A stretch of DNA of 64,000 bases from positions 47,221 through 111,220 of IMG/VR virus record IMGVR_UViG_3300047554_000255; one strand, 5' to 3'. Made by a program: the position numbers and the translations under genes. Origin of the DNA: a virus. The notes under the pieces were generated by a model that searched no databases, had not been told where the DNA came from, and saw only the letters and a program-made list of their open reading frames with translations. Shown here piece by piece: positions 3,001-60,634 of this stretch. Within the stretch, counting starts at the first letter, position 1; every line of letters begins with the position of its first letter.

Positions 3001-5405
3001 TCTTGTAGCTGTGAAAGCTGATTCATGTAAACATTATTAAAGAAAGGAAAGTAATAAGATGTCTGCACTCTATTTGTCGCTGGATCAATACTAGTTGGTC
3101 CTTTTGATATAATGTTTTTACGCAACAAGTTAGACAACTCTTTTATAACGTCATCTTTTATTGACTCACCAATAAGATCTTTTAAGTATTGAGCATCTTC
3201 TATAGATGGTTCAACTCCTTGATAGATCTTTGTTCTGATCATGTTAAGCTTTGCATCAGAACGATTGTTTAATACTGGGAATAAAAAGAACATCTTACTA
3301 GCTGTTTCAAAGTTAGCAATGTTCAGCTTTTCTTTCTTAGTATAGTTAGCATACGCAATCATACGATCTATCTCAGCTTTTGCTAGATCATATAACTTAT
3401 TCTTGAATGCGTCTTTAAACTGGAATGAATCTCTAACGGTTGGCTTAGTCTTGAAGAAAGCAAAATCAGTTGATGGATCAAGACTATCTTTTGTTATCTG
3501 TATTACCGGAGCAGTTGTCTTATCCGATAAAGTAAACATATTATAGTAACCAGTCTTAGCAAAGTTATTCTGATGCTTTAAATATGTATCAAGAATCAAC
3601 TCTCTTGGCGATTGGTTCTTCTTAACCTTACCAATCTCTCCTTTCTTATCTTCTTTTATACTATCTGAATACGATATTGCATAAACAAATGATTCGTTAT
3701 CAGTCTTCTCGTCTTCAAGCAAACGTCTAACTACTTCTGAACTTTTACTATAAGCTCTTTTACTTAATACCTCTAAGAAACTCTTTGTCTTTAGCTTCTT
3801 CTTTACTGTTTCTAAGTAAGAAGGTTGTACATAAGCATAGATGTTTTTGTTCTCACCATTCTGATAGCTACCAGTTTGATAGATATCTGAGTGTAGATCA
3901 TAGTAAAGACTTGCAAGTATATTAAATACACGCTCGTGAACAATAGGGTTGTTCTTGTCTTCGTAGTTTGCTGACTCAGTTGTTGTATCAATATCAGCTG
4001 TTAACGTATTAAGAATATTATCAACAACATTACCTGTTGCAAGTAAATCAGAGAAGCTCTTTGCTTTAAAGGTTTTGAACTTGTTTGCTTTTAATGCTGC
4101 TCCAACATGTTTCATGTAAGCATCATCAACAGGAATATTCATTGAAGTAAGTAACTCTTTAAAGAACTCTTGTTTCTTTGTTAAGTTATTACCAGATCTA
4201 ATCTCTAAGTACTTCTCTTTCAATGACTTAGCTAACTCAGTGTTTATAACTAAGTTGCCAAACTTATTCTTGTTAACAAGCTTTGATACTTTTTGTAACT
4301 CTAACCAATCGTTTTTTATTTGTCTAACAACACTATTACGATTAGAGCTAATAACCTTAACACTTACACCACCTTCTTTAACTTTCTCCCAAAGCAACAT
4401 AGTATGATCTGTGTATGCTTTGTTTATTACAGTAAGTACTTCGTTTAGTAACTGAACATTCTTTGATGCTTGTAACTCACCTAACTTCTTGTGAACGTTT
4501 AATAGGTATGGCTTAACTTGAGCTTTCTCTAAAATAGCTTCTTGTAAAGACTCATAAGTAACATGTTGTAATCCTGCACCTAATACAAGTAAGTCTTCAA
4601 ATACTTGATCGTAAGGCACGAAATCAGCAAGACCTAATAGATTAGCCTTGTCACTCTTAATACTTGAAAATAACAGCTTTACACGAGTCGTAGCTGTATC
4701 CTTTGGGTTCATCTGGAATGAACGTGAATCAGAAAAGCTTTCATTTACAGAAGGGTCTTCAACATCAACATCGTCTTCACCAAATAACTCACCTGCATCA
4801 GCAAGTAAGCTCTCATAATATTCGTTTGTTAAACCAAAGTCTTGGATCTCGTTTTCAGATGTAACCTTTAGTCCTAAACGATTAAGCTTAATGATAACTT
4901 GCTCTGTGAACTTATCGAAGTTCTCATCATCAGTAACGTTATCTAGCAACTCTCCAAGATAAGAGAATTCCTTGTAGTTAAGAATACCAAGCTCAGGTAT
5001 CTTAGAAAGCATATCTTCTGTTGCTGATTCTTTTAAAGCATTATATGCTTCTTCTGAAGTAGCAATATTCTCAGTAAAGTACTTAACCTTTAAAGCTGTG
5101 TTCTTTAACTTACTCTTTATATCAGCAAATAAAACACGAGATGATTTCTCATACGTACCACCTGGCTTTAACAAACCAAGCTCATCAACGAACTGTGAAA
5201 AGATCGCGTTCGTTATTGACTGCTCTTGTACAAGATTAAATAAGTTGATGTTAACAAAGCGATCTTCAACAGCTTGTTTTACAAGATCTAATAATTGTTC
5301 ATCAGACAAACCTTCATTACCTGGTAGAGTAGCAGCACTCTTTAGAATCTGCTTAACCTCTACTTCTGAAAACTCTGATCCGCTAATGTTATATAAACAT
5401 GCCAT
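1..5405 (-). CDS. Giant RNA-polymerase-like protein, left-truncated by the window
   Basis: An open frame of at least 1801 residues starts at the ATG at 5403-5405, one base after the stop of the upstream gene, and runs off the left edge. Residues 1355-1361 read RIPNQLH, and residues 1394-1398 read DFDVD inside SDFDVDKLY. This order and spacing (39 residues from Arg to the first Asp) match the second double-psi beta-barrel of multisubunit RNA polymerase beta' chains, where RxPxLHR is followed about 35 residues later by NADFDGD with the Mg-binding Asp triad. Here the Gly of the triad is Val. A Lys-rich segment KLKLTGTSLVQVSAVG at about 1240-1255 could hold the lysines of the first barrel, which is a guess. 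The gene is the last of the structural series in this window, the place where crAss-like phages keep their virion-packaged polymerase. I infer a virion RNA polymerase, transcribing early genes after ejection. The residue triad is seen; activity and packaging are inferred. Confidence 0.72.
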   Translation of the reverse strand, partial: MACLYNISGSEFSEVEVKQILKSAATLPGNEGLSDEQLLDLVKQAVEDRFVNINLFNLVQEQSITNAIFSQFVDELGLLKPGGTYEKSSRVLFADIKSKLKNTALKVKYFTENIATSEEAYNALKESATEDMLSKIPELGILNYKEFSYLGELLDNVTDDENFDKFTEQVIIKLNRLGLKVTSENEIQDFGLTNEYYESLLADAGELFGEDDVDVEDPSVNESFSDSRSFQMNPKDTATTRVKLLFSSIKSDKANLLGLADFVPYDQVFEDLLVLGAGLQHVTYESLQEAILEKAQVKPYLLNVHKKLGELQASKNVQLLNEVLTVINKAYTDHTMLLWEKVKEGGVSVKVISSNRNSVVRQIKNDWLELQKVSKLVNKNKFGNLVINTELAKSLKEKYLEIRSGNNLTKKQEFFKELLTSMNIPVDDAYMKHVGAALKANKFKTFKAKSFSDLLATGNVVDNILNTLTADIDTTTESANYEDKNNPIVHERVFNILASLYYDLHSDIYQTGSYQNGENKNIYAYVQPSYLETVKKKLKTKSFLEVLSKRAYSKSSEVVRRLLEDEKTDNESFVYAISYSDSIKEDKKGEIGKVKKNQSPRELILDTYLKHQNNFAKTGYYNMFTLSDKTTAPVIQITKDSLDPSTDFAFFKTKPTVRDSFQFKDAFKNKLYDLAKAEIDRMIAYANYTKKEKLNIANFETASKMFFLFPVLNNRSDAKLNMIRTKIYQGVEPSIEDAQYLKDLIGESIKDDVIKELSNLLRKNIISKGPTSIDPATNRVQTSYYFPFFNNVYMNQLSQLQDSSKAIFAIADLKYNVLRAQINTTQVLGADMALFYKESKLVSADQIKEVFGESMTVNQLLSYNVSTEMTPEEQSKRNIINDVLNGTVLSTVDEFSKRAAMFIAPGSQGTTTWQSTKGKIVDVSLYKMITLKDVIKSNDQFSKIETTDAQEFVTLQEHINRMMSEGRIPLDIYESISDKIAEARKKKTFDYSLSDIELGFVLQPTKPVHSSNSETDGFNEINYVKSSAYPLIPDNTRDSEMDKLRVFMEKNNVGSAAFKTATKTGAPISTLEVFDDNGNFIEPSEAEFSSNVQTLSREGLRTQQEIPHQKEMINVVSQMDRQLFEGLDNVLDFMFAGKKLTAAQLKGLKEQIRVALFEGNAEELLDRIGVSITDEYVSFKSERSLANLLKEEAVSRNLSINDIRSIATNKDGKLVIPVYLLSNSSKFEGLLTSIFSKVVKLKLTGTSLVQVSAVGTKIKEGELSDKLKSEIVYTEVYDASKGLQYIRKEADTVAKGGKVKKGEVQAAQVFMSQFLKDENGKLINIKDFATKDENGRLILDSTRIPRKLLQLIGARIPNQLHSSMLPIEVAGFLPSYMENTIIVPDGITAQMGSDFDVDKLYAYLSNPKYTYKDSASKLIDELTKEKEAIKNKYKEELEKVDGDLAKLLNSEQQFEIAKLNESIEKYRARLGYKNLGEKEREQKQRILDGLYEKRSAVYNEVANGTERKKLNQTKYKIKSQRAAELTAINDKIKAQKSQIESIEPVAYESSISDFKNFDPKSLSEEQLFEMYKDIHWSVLTHPTTFDKITSSIDLSDYNDEKELFYKEGIATLPVNFLPFDYNTQINTFLDNRSGKLGTGIFAQLLSFLAEHQDKKTVGFSAGINIKKDSGEIVNLSYLTAEGNTTFKSDATGKTLTRSKTQNASATLNESLDNAKNKNLNVFNLNSASMAPAKLLMSLSSNSGEIADLRYVTRFFPQFIVKYLNEQEEISKDSFAIGQKKYTSEIIADVKRHFINLLSPNA

Positions 5406-11079: not shown

Positions 11080-14000
11080 TTACTGGTTATTTAATAAATC
11101 TCCTAATGTAACATTACTTTGTTGCTTTGGTGCAGCAGCAATTCTAAAATCTCTTAACCGCTTGTAGTTTTCTATTTTTTGCTTTTGAATATACTGATAC
11201 AACTCTTCAGGAGCCATTTGAGCATATGATATGTTTTGCCAACTACCCTCAACAAACTCATTCTCCCCAGCAATAATTGTTTTACCATCTGGACCAACTT
11301 CCTGTCTTAAGTTTTTTTGATCTATCTTAATCATTACACCATCTCCAGTTGAGTTTTGTTTAAGGATGTATTTAAAACCACCTACTTCATCCATTTGATT
11401 GCTCTTTAGAATCTCACCTTGAGTAAGAACCTTTGAGATATAACCAGCTTCTTGAACAGATGGTGCATTCTTTAACTTAATACCATTAGCAAGGTTTACT
11501 TCAATACCTAAGCGACCAATAGCAGCAATCGACTTTTCATCTAATATACCACTACCTGACTTACTCTCTTCTTTTAAAAGCTCTTGCTTATACCCAATGA
11601 TTACAGAAGGATTACCGTTTTTACCTATTGTTGTATAATCAACACGACCTAATGCATTACCACCATCTCTTGCTGTTGTATTAAAGAAGGTGATAACTTT
11701 TTCTCTATCAGCACCAAGTTGTACTAAAGCATCAATGTTAGCAACACCGCCATTACCATCAGCTTGTTCAAAGTTACTACCAGCTAAAGCTTCAGTAACT
11801 AATAACTGACCCTTATCTAAAGTATCACGCTTACCATCTGATGTATAAGTAGTAACCATACCTACTTTACCTAATCTATCAATATAGTATTTAGCGTTCG
11901 GTACAATCTCAGACTGAACAGATTTATACAAGGGAGCTAGTTTTGCAAAGTCATAATCATCTTTAAACTTTGAAATATAACCGCTAACATTATACTCCTC
12001 ACCAGTACTTTTTGATACTACATACTGTCTTCCAGAATGATAGTTTCCTGCTTTATCAGACCATGGTATATCATATTTAACAACACCATCACCTGAATAT
12101 AGCATAGATACTAGATCTTTAGTTGATATCTCCTTAGAACTAATACTATATTTTTTACTTGCAATAGATGTAAGTGTGGAAGGATCTAATACTTTATAAT
12201 TACCAGGAGTTCCTGTTCTAATAGGAGCATACTTATCATTAGCAAGAGCCTTATTAACTAAATCTTTTTGCTCTTTACTCTGTAAGCCCCATTCATTTAT
12301 AGCATCTCTTGATTGCTCTAACTCATTATATATATCTAACTCGTTATCAGTAGCTTTACCACTCTTGTACTTCTCACTATACTTATTATACATCCAAGAT
12401 GTAATTGCATTAACTACACGAGTTGGTCCAGAAGCATAGTCATACTTAGCATCAGCAGGTATAATACCTTTTTCTTTTAGCTTTGTAAAAACCTCATCTT
12501 TGTATTTAGTTTTTGCAGAAGCAGGAGTAACACCATCAGCTGCACGTAATGACTTAACAAAATCAGTAGGTAATATACCTTGTAAATCTGCGTCTTTCTC
12601 TATAGCACTAAAGATACTGTTATATGCTGAGTAACGCTGCTTTGTAACATTATCAACATATACTTCATAAGCATTAGCTTTTGTGATCTGAGCTTGAGTA
12701 TTGATACCAGTAACCATTGGTGTATCAAACTGAGTCTTTCCTTTTCCTTCTGGAGTAGTATCTTGACCGTTTAATGTAGCATTATTACTACCACCTCCAA
12801 AACTAATCTGTGGACTACCATCAGGACCAACACCAAGAATAGCTTTACCTGTCCCACTAAAAGGATATTCTCCTCTTGCAACAGCTTTTGTAAACTCAAA
12901 CTGTGCTTTCTTAAGATCAAGATCTTCAAGCTTTACTCTTAAATCATCAGTTGCAAAAAAAGCATCGTTCTTCTTAACATCTTGTTTAATATTAGAAGCT
13001 AATGCATTTGCTATATCGTTAATCTTCTTCATCTTACCATACTGGGTAAAATAAACAGGACCGTTTGCTGTAACACCTCTAAGATTAGAATCGTAGTTTT
13101 TATCAATATCTGTTAAACGTTCATCATAATCTGAGATCTGTTTGCCATATTGTTTTTTAGCTTCTTCTAGTTCCCTATACTTCTGCATTAAAGCTGCAGA
13201 GTTATTCGGAGTTACTTTAGTTTTCTTAAGCTCTTCTAACTGTGAATCAATACCAGCAATGTTTGCGGTAAGTTCTACTTTACCACTCTCATAAGTCTTT
13301 CTTGTATCTGCAAGATAATCTTTACCGATCATCTGTTTTGCTTCTATCTCAGATACTCCAAACTGATTCATCTTCTCTTTTACAGAACGCTCATGAGCAA
13401 CTGTCATCTCCATTCGTAGATAGTCATCATACTCTGGCTTCCAGTTAGCTTGCATAAAGTTCTTGTAAGATTGTAATGACTTAACACCATTTGTTGTGGT
13501 TACAATCTGTGGACCAGATGCATCAACTGTTTGTATTTCAAATCCATACTCCTTACGTAGTTTTTCCATATCCCCAGCAATATTCTGAGCTCTAATAAAA
13601 CGACGCTGTTGTACTTTTGCAAAGTCTTCTTCAGTTCTATTTGCTGTACGTAAAGGATCTAAACCGTTCTGAATATACTGAATAGCAGTATCACTATACG
13701 TAGCTCTAATCTTTTCGTCTGTTGAATCTCTTGCAGCAAATGCTTTACTTATTTCAGACTGAGCTTGTTTAGTATAAGCCATGTCTTTTAACATAAACTT
13801 ATCTTGCCAGAATGGAGCAAATACAGACTGAGCCTCATCAACGTTTCTACCTTCAGATAAATCCATACTAGATATATCTTTAAGACGTTGCTGTGCTTGC
13901 TGTAAGTATTGAGTTCTTAAGACTTCGTTATTCTGATTAGTTAATGGAGCATTGACAATAGAATCGTTTGCAGCTTTTATTTGATTAAAGCCTTGCTCAT

Positions 14001-51042: not shown

Positions 51043-52191
51043 TTAGATAGTCTCTAACGCGATCGCTTGACCAGCTGCAACAGCAGAGTTAACAATGAAA
51101 TCAGTTAAAGCAGTTGTAGTAGTTCCAGCAGGAACGTTGATAACAACTAAATACTGATCGTTGTCAAATGTGCTAGATGGGTTGTTGAAACGAGGTACGT
51201 TGTGTAATACCATTACTTGATCGTACAATCCGTTACGGTTGATAGTAGCTAAACCTGGGTTAGCTTCGATCTCACGCATACGTAATGAATCAACATGTCC
51301 ACCATCTGGATAAGCTTCTTGACGGTAACGACCGTCTAAGATCATCTCACGCAATACAGTCTCACCAACACCTGATGCTTGACGAGCAGCTTGTGTTTCA
51401 GCAGAAGTAATTCCGTTTACTGCACATGGCTCACCTGAATCATCAACAAATGAAGTGTAGATTTGCAATGGAGCAAGATCGTAATTATCAGTTGGAGTGA
51501 AAGTAGCATCACCAAACTTAGTATCAACATAAGCAACAGTGATAACTAACTTAGCAACATCAGAAGATGTAGCAGCAACACCAGCAAATGAATCATAAGC
51601 TGAAGGAGCAACAGTAGCACCAGTAGTATCTTTAACAGCAACAGAGATAAACTTACCTAAGTAAGGAGACTCGTTTACTTGTTTAGCCCAAGCGATAGCA
51701 ACTTTAGTTGGATCGATTACAGCTGGAGTAGAACCAGCAGCACATCCTGTAAAAGCATCTAAAGTCTTGTAGATGTTGTGAGATAAGAAACGTAATGCAG
51801 GAGAACCTTTCAAATCAACACGTAAGCGGTAAGTAGCATCTTCTAATACATTAGAGATAGATACTTCAACTACTTGATTTTGAGCAGTCTTAGAAGCAAC
51901 TTTAAATACACGAGAGATGTACTTTGGGTTGATAGTCTTTGACTTAACAGACTCTTGGTATCCACCGTGAACTGGACCAATCTTATCAGCTGTAAAATAA
52001 GATCCTTGAGCGATGATAAATGGAGCTGTACCAGCAGCAGATAACGCAGCATAAGAAGATGCGTTAAATACGCCTAACTGACCTGCAGTTAAAGCTGCAG
52101 TAGTTCCTGTTGACGCTAAAGAAACCGCACCGTTTGCGACACCATTAGCACCTACCAAGAACGCTTTTTTGAATGCATTAGGAAAATACAT
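51043..52191 (-). CDS. Probable abundant virion protein, 382 aa
   Basis: The sequence is Ala/Thr/Val-rich and beta-like, without enzyme motifs. VKSKTINPKYISRVFKV, ATYRLRVDLKGSPALRFLSH, REMILDGRYRQEAYPDGGHV and the C-terminal QVMVLHNVPRFNNPSSTFDN suggest a compact structural protein. It resembles a conserved structural protein family of large Bacteroidota phages. Its strong terminator and its GC-richer codon choice compared with the neighbouring fibre genes, judged by eye, suggest high expression. Capsid auxiliary, decoration or tail component are options; I cannot choose. Confidence 0.6.
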   Translation of the reverse strand: MYFPNAFKKAFLVGANGVANGAVSLASTGTTAALTAGQLGVFNASSYAALSAAGTAPFIIAQGSYFTADKIGPVHGGYQESVKSKTINPKYISRVFKVASKTAQNQVVEVSISNVLEDATYRLRVDLKGSPALRFLSHNIYKTLDAFTGCAAGSTPAVIDPTKVAIAWAKQVNESPYLGKFISVAVKDTTGATVAPSAYDSFAGVAATSSDVAKLVITVAYVDTKFGDATFTPTDNYDLAPLQIYTSFVDDSGEPCAVNGITSAETQAARQASGVGETVLREMILDGRYRQEAYPDGGHVDSLRMREIEANPGLATINRNGLYDQVMVLHNVPRFNNPSSTFDNDQYLVVINVPAGTTTTALTDFIVNSAVAAGQAIALETI

Positions 52192-52227: not shown

Positions 52228-52647
52228 CTATTTTAAGAACAGTAACTTATACTTGATACTGTTAAGGGTTGACTTAATCATATCTAAGTCGTTTACTATT
52301 TCACTGTAAGGCATCATGCCTTGTAAAGATGTAACCATCTGGTATACATCTCTAATATAAGATAACGCTTCTTGCACACTATTCAAAGGACGTGGTGCAT
52401 TATCTTCATACGTTAACAACTTCTCTGCAGCTCCTTGGAATCCTTCAGCTAGTGCATCAGCATGTCCTGGTAAAGCATCATATAACTCGTTAAGAGCTTT
52501 ATGAGATGAGAATGAACCTAAGTCTTTTACCTTTAGGTGTAGTTTATGGAAGCTAGTTGCTGCATTCATTAACTCGCTAACACAAGCAGCTGTCTTTGCT
52601 TCTAAAGATCCTCCACTATAACTAGCAGGGCGTTGTAATTTCTGCAT
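52228..52647 (-). CDS. Dps-like ferritin-fold protein, 139 aa
   Basis: The chain is almost entirely helical. Residues 34-72 read FHKLHLKVKDLGSFSSH, then ALNELYDALPGHADALAEGF. His37, His49, Asp64 and Glu68 have the spacings 12, 15 and 4, identical to the ferroxidase ligands His31, His43, Asp58 and Glu62 of Listeria Dps. It also fits my memory of DUF5856, a phage-associated family of this length. Dps proteins store iron and protect DNA from peroxide. Here the gene lies among head and connector genes, 9 bases after the 233-aa gene, so a virion or assembly role is also possible. The fold call is good; iron binding is inferred. Confidence 0.7.
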   Translation of the reverse strand: MQKLQRPASYSGGSLEAKTAACVSELMNAATSFHKLHLKVKDLGSFSSHKALNELYDALPGHADALAEGFQGAAEKLLTYEDNAPRPLNSVQEALSYIRDVYQMVTSLQGMMPYSEIVNDLDMIKSTLNSIKYKLLFLK

Positions 52648-52656
52648 AATATTTTA

Positions 52657-53358
52657 TTAACTGTTTCTACCTGCGTTTTGAACCTCTCTTTGGTATTGAT
52701 TCATTGACTCTATATCACCAGCTAAGATTGCAGCAGCCTCATCACACAAGATCTCAGCAACATCATCTTTAAACTCACATGTCACATCATACTGAATAAC
52801 AGTATTAGTCTCAATATCTATAGATCCTTTAAACTTAATAGCTCTTGGTTTTCTATAGTAAGTAAGCTTTGGGGCTTCAATATTAAACTCACCGTTTGTA
52901 TAGATCTTAATCTTGTTACTCATGATGGTACAAAAAGTCTCTCCCCAATCAAATGATGGAGACTTAAAGTTATCTGATAACAACTCATCAGCATTAGCTT
53001 CTTCAGCTAAATACACTGACATGATTCTACTTGGGCAACATGATGTAATAGCTCTTGTGCTAATACGAGTAAAGTGCATGTAATCAACTGGAATATCAGA
53101 TGTCTCAAAGTATAGATCTCTCTCAATACCACTAAGATTAACCTCCTCTAACAATATCTGCAAATCATCAACAATATTAGATGACTGCTCAGGCATTAAT
53201 GCTCTTGGTGTTAGACCATGAATAACTCGTCTTGTCCACTCAAGTTGCGCTTTATTAAAAGCCTCTTGAATCTGCCAACTTTCGATGTTGTCATAATCAA
53301 AACTAGCTAACTTGTTCAGACGTTGCTTAATCTTAAGCTGTATAAGTTTGTTATCCAT
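52657..53358 (-). CDS. Head-tail connector/adaptor candidate, 233 aa
   Basis: The N-terminal helical part (LIQLKIKQRLNKLASFDYDN, WQIQEAFNKAQLEW) is followed by a beta-rich centre with ISTRAITSCCPSRIMSVYLA and SFDWGETFCTIMSNKIKIYT, and by a helical end (CEFKDDVAEILCDEAAAILA, MNQYQREVQNAG). This pattern is familiar from structural clusters of large Bacteroidota phages. Helix-rich proteins of this size after the capsid gene are commonly connector or head-completion proteins. A terminator separates it from the 338-aa gene. Confidence 0.55.
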   Translation of the reverse strand: MDNKLIQLKIKQRLNKLASFDYDNIESWQIQEAFNKAQLEWTRRVIHGLTPRALMPEQSSNIVDDLQILLEEVNLSGIERDLYFETSDIPVDYMHFTRISTRAITSCCPSRIMSVYLAEEANADELLSDNFKSPSFDWGETFCTIMSNKIKIYTNGEFNIEAPKLTYYRKPRAIKFKGSIDIETNTVIQYDVTCEFKDDVAEILCDEAAAILAGDIESMNQYQREVQNAGRNS

Positions 53359-53417: not shown

Positions 53418-54434
53418 TTACTGTTGCCAGTATTTCTCAACACGTTCTGTTAAGTCTCTTAAGATCTCTTCATTCAAAGGATTCTTTAAGAACTCAACAC
53501 AATCAGATGGAGTACGTCCTAACATTGTCGATGTTGACATATGATAGATAAAACCATCAGCTTTTGTTGCAATCATCTTGTAGTATGTTGAATCTTTAAC
53601 GATTGCACGTAACTTCAATGACTCCATGTCAAGAGCAGATACTTCAATGAAGCGTTCTGCTGTTTTACGCTTATTCTTATCAACATACTCTCCGTTGATA
53701 TATTTATCCATGTTGTCATAGATAATGTCTGTAGGAGTAGATTTGCGGTACTGAGCAGAGTTTACGTCAAGCACTTTTGCAACGTAGAACAACTTGTTGG
53801 TATTCTTATTAAATAACTTATCAAGTTCAGATAACGCTTTGTTACGTAACTTCTTAACCTCTGTGTTTGTCGAAGCAGTCTCTTCTAACTTATCTAAGTA
53901 GAACTTTGGAGGAACTGGTGTTGTTTTTGCATCATCAAGCGACTTTGCAACAATACTAAATCCACCTGCTTCAATAGCATACATACGAATCAAATCGTAA
54001 GGATCTTTATCAGGCTCTAAGAAGAGTGGTTCGTTTCCACATCTAATCTTAATCTTATCCCAAAACTCATCATTGTTAGGTTTTAACAAGATAACTTTAT
54101 TCCAGAAGTCAGGATCTGTAGGATCAATGATGTTTGCAGCTAACTCTTTCTCTAACTGTGAAACAACTTGACGAATCTGCTTGATCTTTGCTTCTGCTTC
54201 TTCAGGATTTAAGTCCTTTATCTCTGGAGCGTATTCGTTCAAACCAGTCTTATACCGTTTGATTCCGTTAATCTCAAGGCATGCAATCGACTCTTCGTGG
54301 AAAGCTCCTTCAAACAAAGTTAAACCGTATTTTTGAAGACCCATGTTATCAACACTAGGATCAAAGTATGGTCTAATAGCAATCGTTGATCGCTTATTTT
54401 GTGGATAACGTTCCACAATAGTTACTGAACTCAT
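53418..54434 (-). CDS. Conserved hypothetical structural-region protein, 338 aa
   Basis: The N-terminal 70 residues are beta-like (IVERYPQNKRSTIAIRPYFD). Residues of about 75-110 form a coiled coil (PEEAEAKIKQIRQVVSQLEK). The rest is mixed, with a helical C-terminus ending in VEKYWQQ. No enzyme motif is seen. The start is preceded by three AACCA repeats. It sits between capsid and connector genes, flanked by hairpins on both sides, so it may be separately regulated. Head-completion or capsid-vertex protein are guesses. Confidence 0.55.
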   Translation of the reverse strand: MSSVTIVERYPQNKRSTIAIRPYFDPSVDNMGLQKYGLTLFEGAFHEESIACLEINGIKRYKTGLNEYAPEIKDLNPEEAEAKIKQIRQVVSQLEKELAANIIDPTDPDFWNKVILLKPNNDEFWDKIKIRCGNEPLFLEPDKDPYDLIRMYAIEAGGFSIVAKSLDDAKTTPVPPKFYLDKLEETASTNTEVKKLRNKALSELDKLFNKNTNKLFYVAKVLDVNSAQYRKSTPTDIIYDNMDKYINGEYVDKNKRKTAERFIEVSALDMESLKLRAIVKDSTYYKMIATKADGFIYHMSTSTMLGRTPSDCVEFLKNPLNEEILRDLTERVEKYWQQ

Positions 54435-54865: not shown

Positions 54866-56485
54866 TTAGAATGATCCGCCAGTAACAGGGTTACGCATCA
54901 CAATCTTCAATACCTTAGTTGGGTCTTTAACCCAGATTGCTGGCATTGTTTGTGACATGAACACACGGTATCCGTTGAACTGTCCAGAAGACTGGAAGCC
55001 TTGAGAACGACCCATGTAATCCATTGTACCGTTTTGGTAGAACCACTTCAATTGATTATCCCAAGATAACTTCAATAAGTAGATGTTATCGTTAGTATTA
55101 TCAGTGATATCAAAGATAACGAAGTTGTAAGAAGATAATGGGAAACCATCGATGATAGGGTTCTCAATATCGTTTGTGTGTACGTTATCAAACGCAGGGT
55201 TCAATACAAACTTAACGTTAGCTAAGAATGGAATAACGTATTGTGTATACGCAAAACCGAAGTTTAAGTCCATTCCTTTACCAGTGATAGCACCAACCTC
55301 AGAAGCATTGATTACTAAGCCAGAGTTGATCGCCTCTTTCTTAATAGCTTCGTTGATTAACTTCATACCACCCATACCTGTTTGAACTACTAATTCACGA
55401 CGAGGATCTGGTCCCTGGAACTCAACCTTACCATTGAAGAAGTTGAAGATCTCAGATTTGAACAAGTCTAAGTTGAATGAACCTTTGTTGTAGATACGCT
55501 TGTAAGAGTTATCTAACTGCTTCCAAAGACCAACTGATAAACGAATATCATCTGGACCATCTTGCTTAACGCGACCACCTTGTCCCCACATTAAGTAAGA
55601 CTCAATGTCAGTAGAGATTTTAGATAAGTGAGCAGCTTCTAAAGTTGTTAAGAATGTACGAGTCAATTGACCTGATTCGTATGCTTTCTTAACATAGTCC
55701 TTACCCATTTTGTTAGCTAAACCTTGTAAGTCAGTAACAGAAGGATCGATAGACTTATCGAATGAACGCCATAACTCAACAACTGGTACAGTACCATCTG
55801 CTTTCATTCCACCTTTCATCATCAAGTCAGCACGAGATGATACAGAGTAGTGAACGTGTGCTTCAGCACCACCAACGTAGTTATAGAACTCACGGAAGCC
55901 AGCAGATACTTGACCTAAGTCAGAGAAACGCTCGCCGTACTCTCCACGTGCAGAACCTTTACGGAAGATCTTTGTTCCTTGCTTAACATACTTGTTGTCT
56001 AAGAACTTCAAGTTGTCGTTGTTTACCAACTGAACTGTATAGATGAAACCGTCACCTGCAGGGATAATATCGTCTGCTGTTACGTACATCTCAGCTCCAT
56101 TGTACTTGTCATAAGTGATGATATCACCGTGACCGAAGATACGCTTGTTCAATTTGATCTTGAACGATTGTCCATCGATACCTTTAGTAGCGTTTCCTGA
56201 TTCAATATCTTCAGTAATGTAAGGAAGATCTTGAGCTACAGGGATTTGCCACTTGTACTCACCGCGAGAGTTATCTACGTTGATAACGTTTTTACCTCCG
56301 AAAGAAGACATCTGATACAAAGGCATTTCTACCTTTTGTGCCATTGCCCACAAATCCACTGGACCTAAGTCCATTGGCTCTGAGCTCTTAAGAAGGTTTG
56401 ATAAGTGGTATGAATCAACGTGAGATGAAGCTGCGTAGCTCGTATCACGCAAAAATATACCATTATTCAAAACTGGAGTTGCCAT
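54866..56485 (-). CDS. Major capsid protein (HK97-fold candidate), 539 aa
   Basis: Position directly after a scaffold-like gene and the portal, length, and an even soluble composition indicate the major capsid protein. The N-terminus has SSHVDSYHLSNLLKSSEPMD. GHGDIITYDKYNGAEMYV and later FVLNPAFDNVHTNDIENPII and GYRVFMSQTMPAIWVKDPTK fit large capsid proteins of Bacteroidota phages. Codon use favours GC-ending choices for several residues, and a clean terminator follows, both expected for a very abundant protein. The HK97 fold is inferred from virus class; no sequence signature proves it. Confidence 0.75.
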   Translation of the reverse strand: MATPVLNNGIFLRDTSYAASSHVDSYHLSNLLKSSEPMDLGPVDLWAMAQKVEMPLYQMSSFGGKNVINVDNSRGEYKWQIPVAQDLPYITEDIESGNATKGIDGQSFKIKLNKRIFGHGDIITYDKYNGAEMYVTADDIIPAGDGFIYTVQLVNNDNLKFLDNKYVKQGTKIFRKGSARGEYGERFSDLGQVSAGFREFYNYVGGAEAHVHYSVSSRADLMMKGGMKADGTVPVVELWRSFDKSIDPSVTDLQGLANKMGKDYVKKAYESGQLTRTFLTTLEAAHLSKISTDIESYLMWGQGGRVKQDGPDDIRLSVGLWKQLDNSYKRIYNKGSFNLDLFKSEIFNFFNGKVEFQGPDPRRELVVQTGMGGMKLINEAIKKEAINSGLVINASEVGAITGKGMDLNFGFAYTQYVIPFLANVKFVLNPAFDNVHTNDIENPIIDGFPLSSYNFVIFDITDNTNDNIYLLKLSWDNQLKWFYQNGTMDYMGRSQGFQSSGQFNGYRVFMSQTMPAIWVKDPTKVLKIVMRNPVTGGSF

Positions 56486-56528: not shown

Positions 56529-57782
56529 TTAACGCTGGAATATGTTTGTTGGACGAGGAGCTTTTCTTACAGAAGGACGTTTGTCTTCTTCTTCAGCATA
56601 GCTTGATCCAACTTTTCTTGACTGTTCAGTCTTTAACTGACGTACAGTCTGTTCAACGGCTTGGTTCTTTGCATTCTTCGCAATGTTTTGACGGTATGCT
56701 TCAGGATCTGAAAGTAACCACAATGCTTCTGCAACTAACGGGTAGTTTGGCTCAACAAACTGATACTTCTCTAAAAGGTGTCCTAACTGATTCGTTGGAC
56801 GTCCTGATATTGACGGATAGTTTGGTTGTACTAAACCTGCATACAAAGATGCTTGTGTTTTCTTGTCTAACTTAAGACCATTGATCTCAGCTGGACGTAA
56901 AGCTTCAAACACATTCTCCATGTAAGCTTCTGCCGCTTGTTTTTGTTGACGATTACGAGCTTCTTGTTCAGCTAATTGTGACTGAACGATTTCAGCTTGC
57001 ATGCTATCCAACTTAGGTTTAAACTGTTTTGCTTTCTTTTCAAGCACACCTAAGTCTTTCCATGTCGTCAACTCCTCTTCTATTTCTTCTGCATCACCGA
57101 AGTTTGTTGCTTGTAAGTATGAACGAACAATAGACTCTTGATCATTCTCATCTGTAGGATTAAGTTCACGAACTTGTTCTACTTGAGCTAAGGCTTGGAA
57201 TAAACCTTTAAGATCTTGTCCTCCGTCAGCAACATACTTTGCTGCAACTTGTAACTCTTCTGGTAAAGACTCAAAAAACTCTTGAGGAGTATTTGAAGCA
57301 ACTTCGTTCTTTAAGTTATCGATGTTTGCTTGCCATAACTCTTCATAGTCTTTTTCACCTAACGTACCTAAGTAATCATCAAGAGTTTGTTTTGACTCAT
57401 CAAAGTCATCAAACGCAAACATCTCTTTTGACTCAATACGCTTCTTGAAGAAATCAACTAAGCCAGACTTTTCTGTCTTAGGTCGACCACCTTTGTTTGG
57501 TTTCTGATCTTCATTATCTGCTGGCTCTTCACCAAGTTCGTTGAATAAATCATCAACCTTTATAGGTTCGTCTTTTTTACCATCACCGTCAGTCGGTTCA
57601 TCTGATGGTTCATCATCTTTCTTATCAATAAAAGAAAGATCTGTTTTGTCTTGACTAAACATTGATGGCTTTGCAGGCTCGTTAGAAGCAGGTGTAATAA
57701 TACTATCTGCTCCTGGGGCTGATAACCAGCTATCAATATCCAAGTCTACTGTACCAGTAGTTGGTTCGTTATTTGTTGACAT
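56529..57782 (-). CDS. Scaffold-like head assembly protein, 417 aa
   Basis: The first 110 residues are acidic and disordered (KDDEPSDEPTDGDGKKDE). Helical, charged segments follow (LEKKAKQFKPKLDSMQAEIV, QLAEQEARNRQQKQAAEAYM), and the C-terminus is basic (RPSVRKAPRPTNIFQR). This composition and the location between portal and capsid genes are typical of scaffolding proteins, which guide capsid assembly and often bind the shell by a basic end. No protease motif is seen in it. It has the best-defined promoter motif of the window upstream, with an AACCAACC leader. Confidence 0.7.
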   Translation of the reverse strand: MSTNNEPTTGTVDLDIDSWLSAPGADSIITPASNEPAKPSMFSQDKTDLSFIDKKDDEPSDEPTDGDGKKDEPIKVDDLFNELGEEPADNEDQKPNKGGRPKTEKSGLVDFFKKRIESKEMFAFDDFDESKQTLDDYLGTLGEKDYEELWQANIDNLKNEVASNTPQEFFESLPEELQVAAKYVADGGQDLKGLFQALAQVEQVRELNPTDENDQESIVRSYLQATNFGDAEEIEEELTTWKDLGVLEKKAKQFKPKLDSMQAEIVQSQLAEQEARNRQQKQAAEAYMENVFEALRPAEINGLKLDKKTQASLYAGLVQPNYPSISGRPTNQLGHLLEKYQFVEPNYPLVAEALWLLSDPEAYRQNIAKNAKNQAVEQTVRQLKTEQSRKVGSSYAEEEDKRPSVRKAPRPTNIFQR

Positions 57783-57895: not shown

Positions 57896-60634
57896 TTAAT
57901 CTTTCTTTTTTGGCTGATCATACTTATTCTTGTTTTCACGTGCTATTTGTAATGCTGTATCCATCTTTTCACGCTCTACGCCTATTTTTTCACGCTCTAA
58001 AGATAACTGATCTTGATTCTTGCGAGTCTTGTTTATTTCTTGCTCACGTTTAAAGCTCATCTGCTCGTTGTATTGATCTTGAGCTCTTATATCTTTTAAA
58101 GCATCTTGATAGTCAGACTGCATGTTTTGATTGATATCAAACCCAGATCCTCTACCAGCAGCATTTATCTCAGCTACTGTGATATCTTTTTGAACCATCT
58201 TATCATCACGTTCAGCTTGAGCTTGAATCTCCATCTGTTTAGCCTTCTCAGCAGCAGCTAGTTGCTCTTGTTGCATTTGCTGTTGAGCTTGTTGCTCTTG
58301 CTGCTTCATTTGAGTAACCTTGTTCTCAGCCTCTTTTAATACTCCAGTTAACTCTGCAATCGATTCAGACTTAATAATGTTTCCTAGGTCATATATCGAA
58401 GCCCCAGTAGTATTATTATTTAAAGCTAACTGCTTTAACTGATCCATTATCTGACGCTGATTAGTCTTTGTTGTGCAGAAGATATTCAACTCACGTAATA
58501 ATAAATCTGTACCGTTCATCTGGAAGTTAACACGCTCATCCGTTGATGTAATGTATTGTAATCTAACAGATGGTTTCTTTGAGTGATAGTACTGAGCTAA
58601 GTCAGTTCTCATCTCATGAACACGTGGCATTAAGTAATCACTATGCTGTGTAAAGTAAACCTCAGTCTGTGCATAAGATGCATTAACAGCTTGTTCAACA
58701 CCTGTTGCAGTTTGTTGGCTAAGTTGTTGACCCATACGCTGAGGATTGATACCAATCGTTTCAAACGCTTGTGTCTTAAAGTAATTAGCCAACTGAATAC
58801 GAGACATCAAACGATTTGTCTGCTCAAGGTTAAGAACTTGATAGTGCTGGAATGATAAAGGATTCTCAGTATTTGTAATCGTTGTATCCAACGGTAACAT
58901 CTGGAAGTTCTTCATTGCAACATATGCTTTCTCAAGGTTGTTCTTACCCCAATCTTCACCCATTGAGTGACGAGGTAGAGCATTCTGATCAAACATAATA
59001 ACTGTTCCTAGTTCATCAACTAAGATGTCTGCTATCTGATTGTTAACAATGTTGTATCCAATCTGATAAGGCTTCATCATATCAACAAGAGATGTTGATC
59101 TTGTGTTTCTATCACCAAATACAGAACCTTCAACTGGTAGCTTACATCCATAAAGAGTTGAGTCACCCTTGAATTGGAATGGAAGACGTGATGGTTTACC
59201 ACCATTCAAGCCCATGTAGATAGGGTTAAGACCACCTGGGTTATTCATTCCCCAGAATGCAGGACGATTAGGTCCAATCTTTATACCTCCCCATGTTTCG
59301 TTAATCCAGATCCAATCAATATGCTCACCAAAGATCAAGTTTTCTTTTGTCTTGTTCTTTACAGTTGATGTATTGTATAGAGGCTTCTCTGTAATCTTGT
59401 AAGACTCATCAACAATATCTTGAATCATCTCGCCTTCTTCAGTAATCTTTACTAAGTGACCAAGCTTACGTTGTGATTTCCAATAGATTGTTGATACACG
59501 TAATAAATGTGTCTTACCAAAGTCAACAGTATCTTCTGAATCTGCTAAGATCCATTCAACGATATCTCCTGTACCAAACTGAGAATCATATACTGATGTA
59601 AACTGACGATATGCTAATGATGGCATTTGTGTATTCCACTCATGAGAGCGAGTACCATCATAGTAAGATCCATCGTTTTGTTGTCCTTGGATAGCGTAAC
59701 CAGCTGCACGAACAGGATATAAAGTCTCAAGAGACTCCATCTGTTCTGCTGTCATCATCCAACCAAACTTATCAATAACATCTGATACAGACATTAAATC
59801 GATCTTACCTACCCAGTTACCTTGTGATACGTAACGAACATCTGGAGATTTATGATAGAAAGTAAGTAATGGGTTCCATAACTCTACTTCATAATCATCT
59901 TCTCTCATCTGGAAGTGCCAGAACTCACGGTCAGTAATTAAGCTATCTCTAAATGCACGTTCTTCAAGCTCTTGCATCTTAAAGCGTTCAACATCAACCA
60001 TCATCTGGTGAGATGCCCATTGCTCAATCATTGAGCGGTAATCCTTTCTGAAGAAGTCTTCAATACCAGGAAGAGTCATTAAGTTCTCTTTACTCAACTG
60101 TTGCTGAGCTTCTTCAGACTCCATATCAACACCCATCTTCGCCATCTCCATACGAATCTTTTCTTCAGCTTGTTGAAGTAAGACACGCTCAACCATCGCA
60201 CGTTTTTCTTCTAACATCTCGTTATGAGAGATATCGTCAACAGCACGGAAAGTTATTTTGTTAACACGCTTTGCAAACTCTGCACATAATACGTTTATAA
60301 CATTTGGGATGATAGGATAAAACTTTAACTCTAAAGCTGTTTGATCCTCTTGAGTTAACATATCAACGATATCAGACATCTCATTACCATCTTCAACGAT
60401 GTAATCAGTCTTGTCAATAATACCTTTTGCAAGCTTATAGTTCTTCATCAATCTACGCGAGTTTCTGCGTAGTTGTTTCATTCCCTGGAACTCAAGCCAG
60501 TCTAAGTTATGAGCTCTCCACTCATCGTCTTTGTCTTTTGCAGGTATAAACTGAATAGGCTGGGTTAACGTACCCATCTTGTTATTTTCAGTCTTCTTAC
60601 CCGCCTTGGCGTCAAGGGCATTTATAATCTGCAT
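57896..60634 (-). CDS. Portal protein, 912 aa
   Basis: The length, the position two genes after the terminase and the general pattern support a portal: an N-terminal helical region (WLEFQGMKQLRRNSRRLMKN), a central mixed wing/clip part with many Trp/Tyr (DREFWHFQMREDDYEVELWN), a stem-like segment, and a long C-terminal coiled, Gln-rich barrel (about residues 770-900, EQQAQQQMQQEQLAAAEKAK). Portals form the dodecameric DNA channel at one capsid vertex and bind the terminase. The chain is longer than most podovirus portals mainly because of the Gln-rich tail. No other role fits the context. Confidence 0.8.
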   Translation of the reverse strand: MQIINALDAKAGKKTENNKMGTLTQPIQFIPAKDKDDEWRAHNLDWLEFQGMKQLRRNSRRLMKNYKLAKGIIDKTDYIVEDGNEMSDIVDMLTQEDQTALELKFYPIIPNVINVLCAEFAKRVNKITFRAVDDISHNEMLEEKRAMVERVLLQQAEEKIRMEMAKMGVDMESEEAQQQLSKENLMTLPGIEDFFRKDYRSMIEQWASHQMMVDVERFKMQELEERAFRDSLITDREFWHFQMREDDYEVELWNPLLTFYHKSPDVRYVSQGNWVGKIDLMSVSDVIDKFGWMMTAEQMESLETLYPVRAAGYAIQGQQNDGSYYDGTRSHEWNTQMPSLAYRQFTSVYDSQFGTGDIVEWILADSEDTVDFGKTHLLRVSTIYWKSQRKLGHLVKITEEGEMIQDIVDESYKITEKPLYNTSTVKNKTKENLIFGEHIDWIWINETWGGIKIGPNRPAFWGMNNPGGLNPIYMGLNGGKPSRLPFQFKGDSTLYGCKLPVEGSVFGDRNTRSTSLVDMMKPYQIGYNIVNNQIADILVDELGTVIMFDQNALPRHSMGEDWGKNNLEKAYVAMKNFQMLPLDTTITNTENPLSFQHYQVLNLEQTNRLMSRIQLANYFKTQAFETIGINPQRMGQQLSQQTATGVEQAVNASYAQTEVYFTQHSDYLMPRVHEMRTDLAQYYHSKKPSVRLQYITSTDERVNFQMNGTDLLLRELNIFCTTKTNQRQIMDQLKQLALNNNTTGASIYDLGNIIKSESIAELTGVLKEAENKVTQMKQQEQQAQQQMQQEQLAAAEKAKQMEIQAQAERDDKMVQKDITVAEINAAGRGSGFDINQNMQSDYQDALKDIRAQDQYNEQMSFKREQEINKTRKNQDQLSLEREKIGVEREKMDTALQIARENKNKYDQPKKKD

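Follow-up and report, generated by a model that had tools for sequence, protein, structure and literature searches.

Exchangeable Dps-type and ferritin proteins with a common N-terminal tag occupy one slot among the head genes of crAss-like phages

In a group of crAss-like phages the position between the genes for a ring protein and an auxiliary capsid protein is held by a Dps-type protein, by a ferritin, by both or by none, and the two kinds of protein begin with a common short peptide. Phage Dps proteins are already known (PMC8008677); the new part is the slot with its exchangeable, tagged ferritin-type proteins. The window, i.e., the whole stretch of 64,000 nucleotides that was analysed, is part of a 111 kb crAss-like virus record, and its slot contains the Dps-type gene. 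The explanation we favour, to which we give about an even chance, is that the product is an accessory Dps-type ferroxidase made late together with the virion proteins, docked by its tag, carried by the virion and protective of DNA.

The operon runs in the order portal, scaffold-like protein, major capsid protein, a small protein, g53, ring protein, Dps, g51 and g50 (Table 1). The Dps gene is separated by 9 bp from the ring gene and by 36 bp from g51. The initial annotation had assigned it to a capsid operon, and it is indeed found there, between the ring and auxiliary capsid genes and downstream of the major capsid gene. Profiles of g51, the ring protein and g53 gave nothing useful against solved structures, but the fold search with g51 did succeed: its AlphaFold2 model matched chain a of 7qof, i.e., gp36 of 333 residues, with E=5e-13 and probability 1.00. 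The ring protein also matched phrog_29507 (virion structural), and g53 was found in nearly all relatives having the same operon. Homologues of the auxiliary capsid protein are between about 380 and 670 aa long; their ends are conserved and the middle varies, a pattern to be expected if a surface domain is changing. The virion genes of the family also include one for a conserved, small Lys-rich protein of about 80 aa (MAIKKTT...SSVGISI...KAEMRKWEIESAMS; from position 5070 in locus L071, from 4258 in L355, and in similar loci). Leptolyngbya phage Lbo-JY46 (L198) encodes at 11968-13644 a capsid protein of crAss type, which has about 30% identity to that of the window; its head gene order is similar, without a ferritin gene at the slot, and a ring-protein query from the Leptolyngbya phage returned 0 loci.

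Table 1. Positions of the Dps-type gene, its predicted ligands and tag, and the neighbouring head genes in the window.
Feature	Position	Strand	Basis
Dps-type (DUF5856) miniferritin, 139 aa	52228..52647	minus	profile, alignment, fold model
Tag core L4-Q5-R6-P7, then short Ser/Gly linker; predicted disordered	52627..52638	minus	common to slot ferritins
H37, predicted ferroxidase ligand	52537..52539	minus	147/147 homologues; aligned to Dps His
H49, predicted ferroxidase ligand	52501..52503	minus	147/147 homologues
D64, predicted ferroxidase ligand	52456..52458	minus	147/147 homologues
E68, predicted ferroxidase ligand	52444..52446	minus	147/147 homologues
g51, auxiliary capsid protein (phicrAss001 gp36-like), downstream neighbour	51043..52191	minus	fold
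Ring/adaptor (tail barrel) protein, upstream neighbour	52657..53358	minus	csAssE-Sib 'ring protein', 28% identity, E=4e-11
g53, conserved operon gene between major capsid and ring genes	53418..54434	minus	conservation
Major capsid protein	54866..56485	minus	Crass_capsid PF23898, 3e-29; phicrAss001 gp32, 4e-4
Putative scaffold-like protein between portal and capsid genes	56529..57782	minus	position alone; without family match
Portal protein	57896..60634	minus	phrog_6547, 4e-92

The initial annotation had pointed to the arrangement His37-x11-His49-x14-Asp64-x3-Glu68, i.e., the spacing of the Dps iron site. The spacing is exact in the 139-aa reading frame, and in the profile alignments inspected the H-H-D-E of the family falls on the H-H-D-E of solved Dps proteins. 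The comparison set, drawn from viral contigs and phage records, comprised 147 distinct homologues with identities down to 26% (T4-like phage CC31). All four ligands and G72 were invariant in this set, and H34 was kept in 146/147; in HP-NAP a His is likewise found at the H34 position. A lack of conservation in close homologues, which the annotation had named as evidence against an iron site, was thus looked for and not seen. The protein matched the Pfam family DUF5856 of phage Dps-like proteins above the cut-off (E=5e-14) and PHROG 858, a 'starvation-inducible transcriptional regulator' (6e-20), while the match to Ferritin PF00210 was sub-threshold (4e-4). With a profile of 60 homologues, solved Dps proteins were matched, HP-NAP best (8e-6), then CAIP (1e-5) and B. 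subtilis MrgA (9e-5). The DUF5856 and PHROG 858 matches, the invariance and the match to solved Dps rule out a chance motif. There were two departures from the classical sequence. Firstly, the fifth canonical metal residue, an Asp four positions after the second His, is N53 in the window protein and varies between N, Q and G. Secondly, the Trp that follows the first His in classical Dps is replaced by Leu in 144/147 homologues. Judged by profiles and fold model, the protein is a member of a known family, Dps-like or DUF5856, and not a classical Dps. Pairwise dN/dS was dropped as evidence because very distant sequences were mixed in.

The AlphaFold2 monomer is a predicted four-helix bundle with pLDDT 92.3 (helices 15-37, 45-74, 91-111 and 115-137), residues 1-10 having a mean pLDDT of 49. 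Foldseek returned Dps and ferritin chains with probability 1.00 and TM-score of about 0.7 by query length; Dps proteins were among the best PDB matches, yet with E of only about 1e-3 to 2e-3. The short helix in the BC loop of classical Dps is absent from the model, in which residues 75-90 are non-helical. H49 and D64 are placed on one predicted helix, 15 residues apart, a distance that would span roughly 22 Å. The His pair and the acid pair therefore cannot form a single site within the monomer, and could instead make a two-subunit site of the Dps type. In such an assembly the Dps-like fold would pair subunits, with H37 and H49 of one and D64 and E68 of the other binding iron, and the paired site would oxidise Fe2+ with peroxide or oxygen, so that hydroxyl-radical damage is suppressed.

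In order to avoid sampling Dps carriers alone, relatives were collected by a capsid-protein search. It retrieved Dps loci, loci in which the ring gene directly adjoins the auxiliary capsid gene, and three loci that have a different gene in the slot; in this sample the slot was occupied by Dps in 25 cases, by the other gene in 3, and was empty in 10. The other gene encodes a bacterial-type ferritin (PF00210, 1e-24; solved ferritin 3qz3, 1e-27), and of the 80 loci retrieved by a search with it, about 66 have it in this slot. Taken together, 176 loci had the capsid, g53, ring and auxiliary capsid genes all detected, and their slots held Dps (104), ferritin (56), both (6), nothing (10) or any other gene (0), totals in which the use of Dps and ferritin as queries introduces a bias. 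On a FastTree phylogeny of 137 phages built from capsid, g53 and ring proteins, slot content changed at least 26 times, versus 47.8 in shuffles, and when well-supported branches alone are counted, the Dps label must still change 18 times and the ferritin label 20 times. Slot content can differ between phages whose three proteins are 93-95% identical. The aligned ferroxidase residues E32, E65, H68, E109 and Q142 were kept in 54/54 slot ferritins.

Neither Dps nor ferritin was found elsewhere in nine empty-slot records, several of them 90-125 kb long and some of them fragments; the ferritin search was repeated on four of these, and three positive controls matched. The slot gene is dispensable, as some relatives are without both. 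A core structural protein is ruled out by the empty slots (10/176) and by the nine records lacking either gene. The initial annotation had also considered a change of the protein into a structural one with four helices. A role in structure or assembly without iron chemistry would agree with the position in a virion operon, with the missing BC helix and with the loss of the classical Trp and Asp, but it would not account for four ligands kept invariant over large divergence, for replacement by a ferritin with an intact ferroxidase site, or for relatives without both genes, and we consider it very improbable. Loss of iron function as the main reading is ruled out by the invariant ligands together with the intact ferroxidase residues of the slot ferritins. 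What stands of the earlier interpretation is an iron-site protein made with the head genes. The predicted ferroxidase function is strongly supported, because the ligands are invariant in the alignments and the gene is replaced by another protein of ferroxidase type.

No close relative of the slot ferritin was found in the phage record collection. The sole cellular relative retrieved with a clear chromosomal context was a Maribacter ferritin with 47% identity, in which the N-terminal tag is not present. A ferritin 66% identical to the slot ferritin, with a different N-terminus, is encoded at 1090-1689 of JACIXZ010000027.1 (L366), a short contig assigned to a Tissierellales MAG and possibly a phage contig.

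The tag was defined as [LI]xR(P/T/N/D/S/E) followed by a variable linker. It was present in 81/92 slot Dps and 40/47 slot ferritins, where shuffles gave means of 5.2 and 4.2, respectively, and in 3/77 non-slot Dps homologues; after dereplication the counts were 45/50 and 29/35. Since the motif is encoded by 40 different codon spellings, the tag is a feature at the protein level. Among the 115 ORFs of the window's genome, a similar start was seen in the Dps and in one other, apparently spurious ORF. At the tandem locus L342 both proteins are tagged (MQKIVRP in the ferritin, MQKIPRP in the Dps), and at tandem loci L020 and L096 the Dps version is LKK. A conserved short terminal peptide is common to the different slot proteins. 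Some sister pairs of Dps and ferritin match strikingly at the tag (L264, MEAKPRMLKRNPES; L305, MEAKPRMLKRPESS), but over all Dps-ferritin pairs the similarity of tags did not follow phage relatedness significantly (Spearman 0.246; permuted mean 0.16, maximum 0.315). Recombination which swaps the body of the gene and keeps the first codons may explain some sister pairs, but neither the double tags of tandem loci nor the long-term conservation.

Dps and ferritin genes were linked to head genes in other places too. In a second crAss-like lineage, with a capsid protein about 39-42% identical to those of human-gut crAss-like phages, the two genes are adjacent between the portal and scaffold/capsid genes (L295, L301, L306-L309; e.g., L307 6962-7920), and their products have a common but different N-terminus, MALDIN/DINK (MALDINK). 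In small podovirus contigs (L104, L111, L113, L116, L084; e.g., L111 3956-4363) a DUF5856 Dps-like gene directly follows the portal gene, apparently an independent placement in a head module. Dps-like domains were recognised by fold within annotated prohead proteases of uncultured Caudovirales phages (BFVD A0A6J7WIS1, A0A6J7WPK9 and A0A6J7XDU5), and these models suggest that other head-linked proteins of ferritin fold exist.

That two non-orthologous cages of one slot bear the same tag, each encoded in its own gene, is best explained if both dock to a common target. According to this explanation the tag, LQRP in the window, would dock the protein through its flexible linker to a single phage target, which is the same for both cages and most likely part of the head or tail during assembly, and the docked protein, carried in or on the virion, would protect packaged or freshly delivered DNA. 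We favour cargo associated with the virion because the operon builds the virion and because phicrAss001 virions have cargo proteins in capsid and tail (PMC10172136). Packaging, one of the options of the initial annotation, remains plausible, with the shared tag as an indirect argument. Several observations count against the favoured explanation as a whole. No Dps is listed among the phicrAss001 cargo identified by mass spectrometry (PMC10172136), and in the crAss-like phage cr106_1 DpsA is encoded near tRNA genes, outside the head operon. The likeness of tags does not track lineages significantly, the BC helix is absent from the model, and the tag, being basic (LKR, LQRP), could instead be a DNA-binding tail.

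DNA binding by the tag is the main rival to docking. The protein would then be a soluble ferroxidase of late infection, outside the virion, which shields both the phage DNA and the host cell against Fenton chemistry. In several Dps proteins, DNA is bound by Lys/Arg tails at the N-terminus. The tag is basic and predicted to be disordered, and most DUF5856 relatives are found outside head modules in T4-like and other phages. A use of Dps by gut phages against oxidative stress has already been proposed (PMC8008677). However, the slot ferritins bear the same tag, the common tag of the second lineage, starting with MALDIN, is non-basic at its core, and the gene is kept in head-operon slots of two crAss-like lineages. 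Ferritins, moreover, are normally without DNA binding. On balance we find this rival rather unlikely. Adsorption by means of an iron-loaded protein on the particle surface, the 'Ferrojan horse' idea, seems to us a very long way from probable. A ferritin-like product was detected by mass spectrometry in a preparation of a Vi01-like phage (PMC10892097), and the slot adjoins tail-ring and auxiliary-capsid genes; against this, TonB- and FeoB-deficient hosts could be infected as usual (PMC10892097), we found nothing that connects the slot protein with fibres, and relatives often do without the gene.

More tentatively, and with less confidence than in the accessory ferroxidase itself, we propose that a family of environmental crAss-like phages may possess a dedicated cargo slot for nanocages of the ferritin superfamily, in which Dps and ferritin can be swapped because a virion component recognises their short targeting peptide at the N-terminus. 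If true, this would be an independent phage counterpart of encapsulin-ferritin systems, with iron detoxification delivered along with the genome. The usual annotation of Dps-like proteins in phages is hypothetical or 'transcriptional regulator', and their genes are treated as isolated and host-derived. A slot reserved for ferritin-type enzymes, which swaps two non-orthologous ones with the same tag, points to selection for handling of iron or peroxide at a defined site of the particle or genome, and suggests that in these crAss-like phages the attachment of an iron-handling protein to particle or genome is deliberate. In the part of the literature covered, no account was found of a slot with ferritin alone, of an exchange between Dps and ferritin or of the common N-terminal tag, and a review of Crassvirales makes no mention of Dps, ferritin or iron (PMC10136315).

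The closest known proteins are phage DUF5856 / PHROG 858 members such as mobD.6 of Enterobacter phage CC31 and rI.-1 of T2, which belong to the same family by profile and have the same invariant H-H-D-E and H34. Unlike the window Dps, proteins of this type are encoded outside the virion operon and are without the [LI]xR tag; no functional test of them was found in the same part of the literature. Bacterial Dps proteins (HP-NAP, MrgA, E. coli Dps) agree with the window protein in ligand spacing and four-helix fold, and some of them (HP-NAP) also have a further His, three positions ahead of the first ligand. The window protein differs from them in being shorter, in having no predicted BC helix, in the Trp to Leu replacement and in the unconserved fifth metal residue. 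Gut-phage enzymes of Dps type (cr106_1 DpsA; 'Gratiaviridae') are likewise phage-encoded proteins of Dps fold, but DpsA of cr106_1 lies among tRNA genes, in contrast to the head-operon position of the window Dps, and neither ferritin exchange nor a common tag has been described for them. The Vi01-like phage proteome includes a ferritin-like product detected with virion proteins (PMC10892097); it comes from a different phage family, its structural assignment is weak, and no tag or exchange was described. The ferritin-like cargo of encapsulins and the internal proteins of phage T4 offer a parallel to the docking proposed here. In both, cargo is directed to an HK97-fold shell by a short peptide at one terminus; the motif and the phage differ from ours. 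The tagged slot raises a testable question, i.e., whether tailed phages carry ferroxidases loaded by a short peptide, and hints at a place outside the encapsulins where ferritin cargo and HK97-fold shells may come together.
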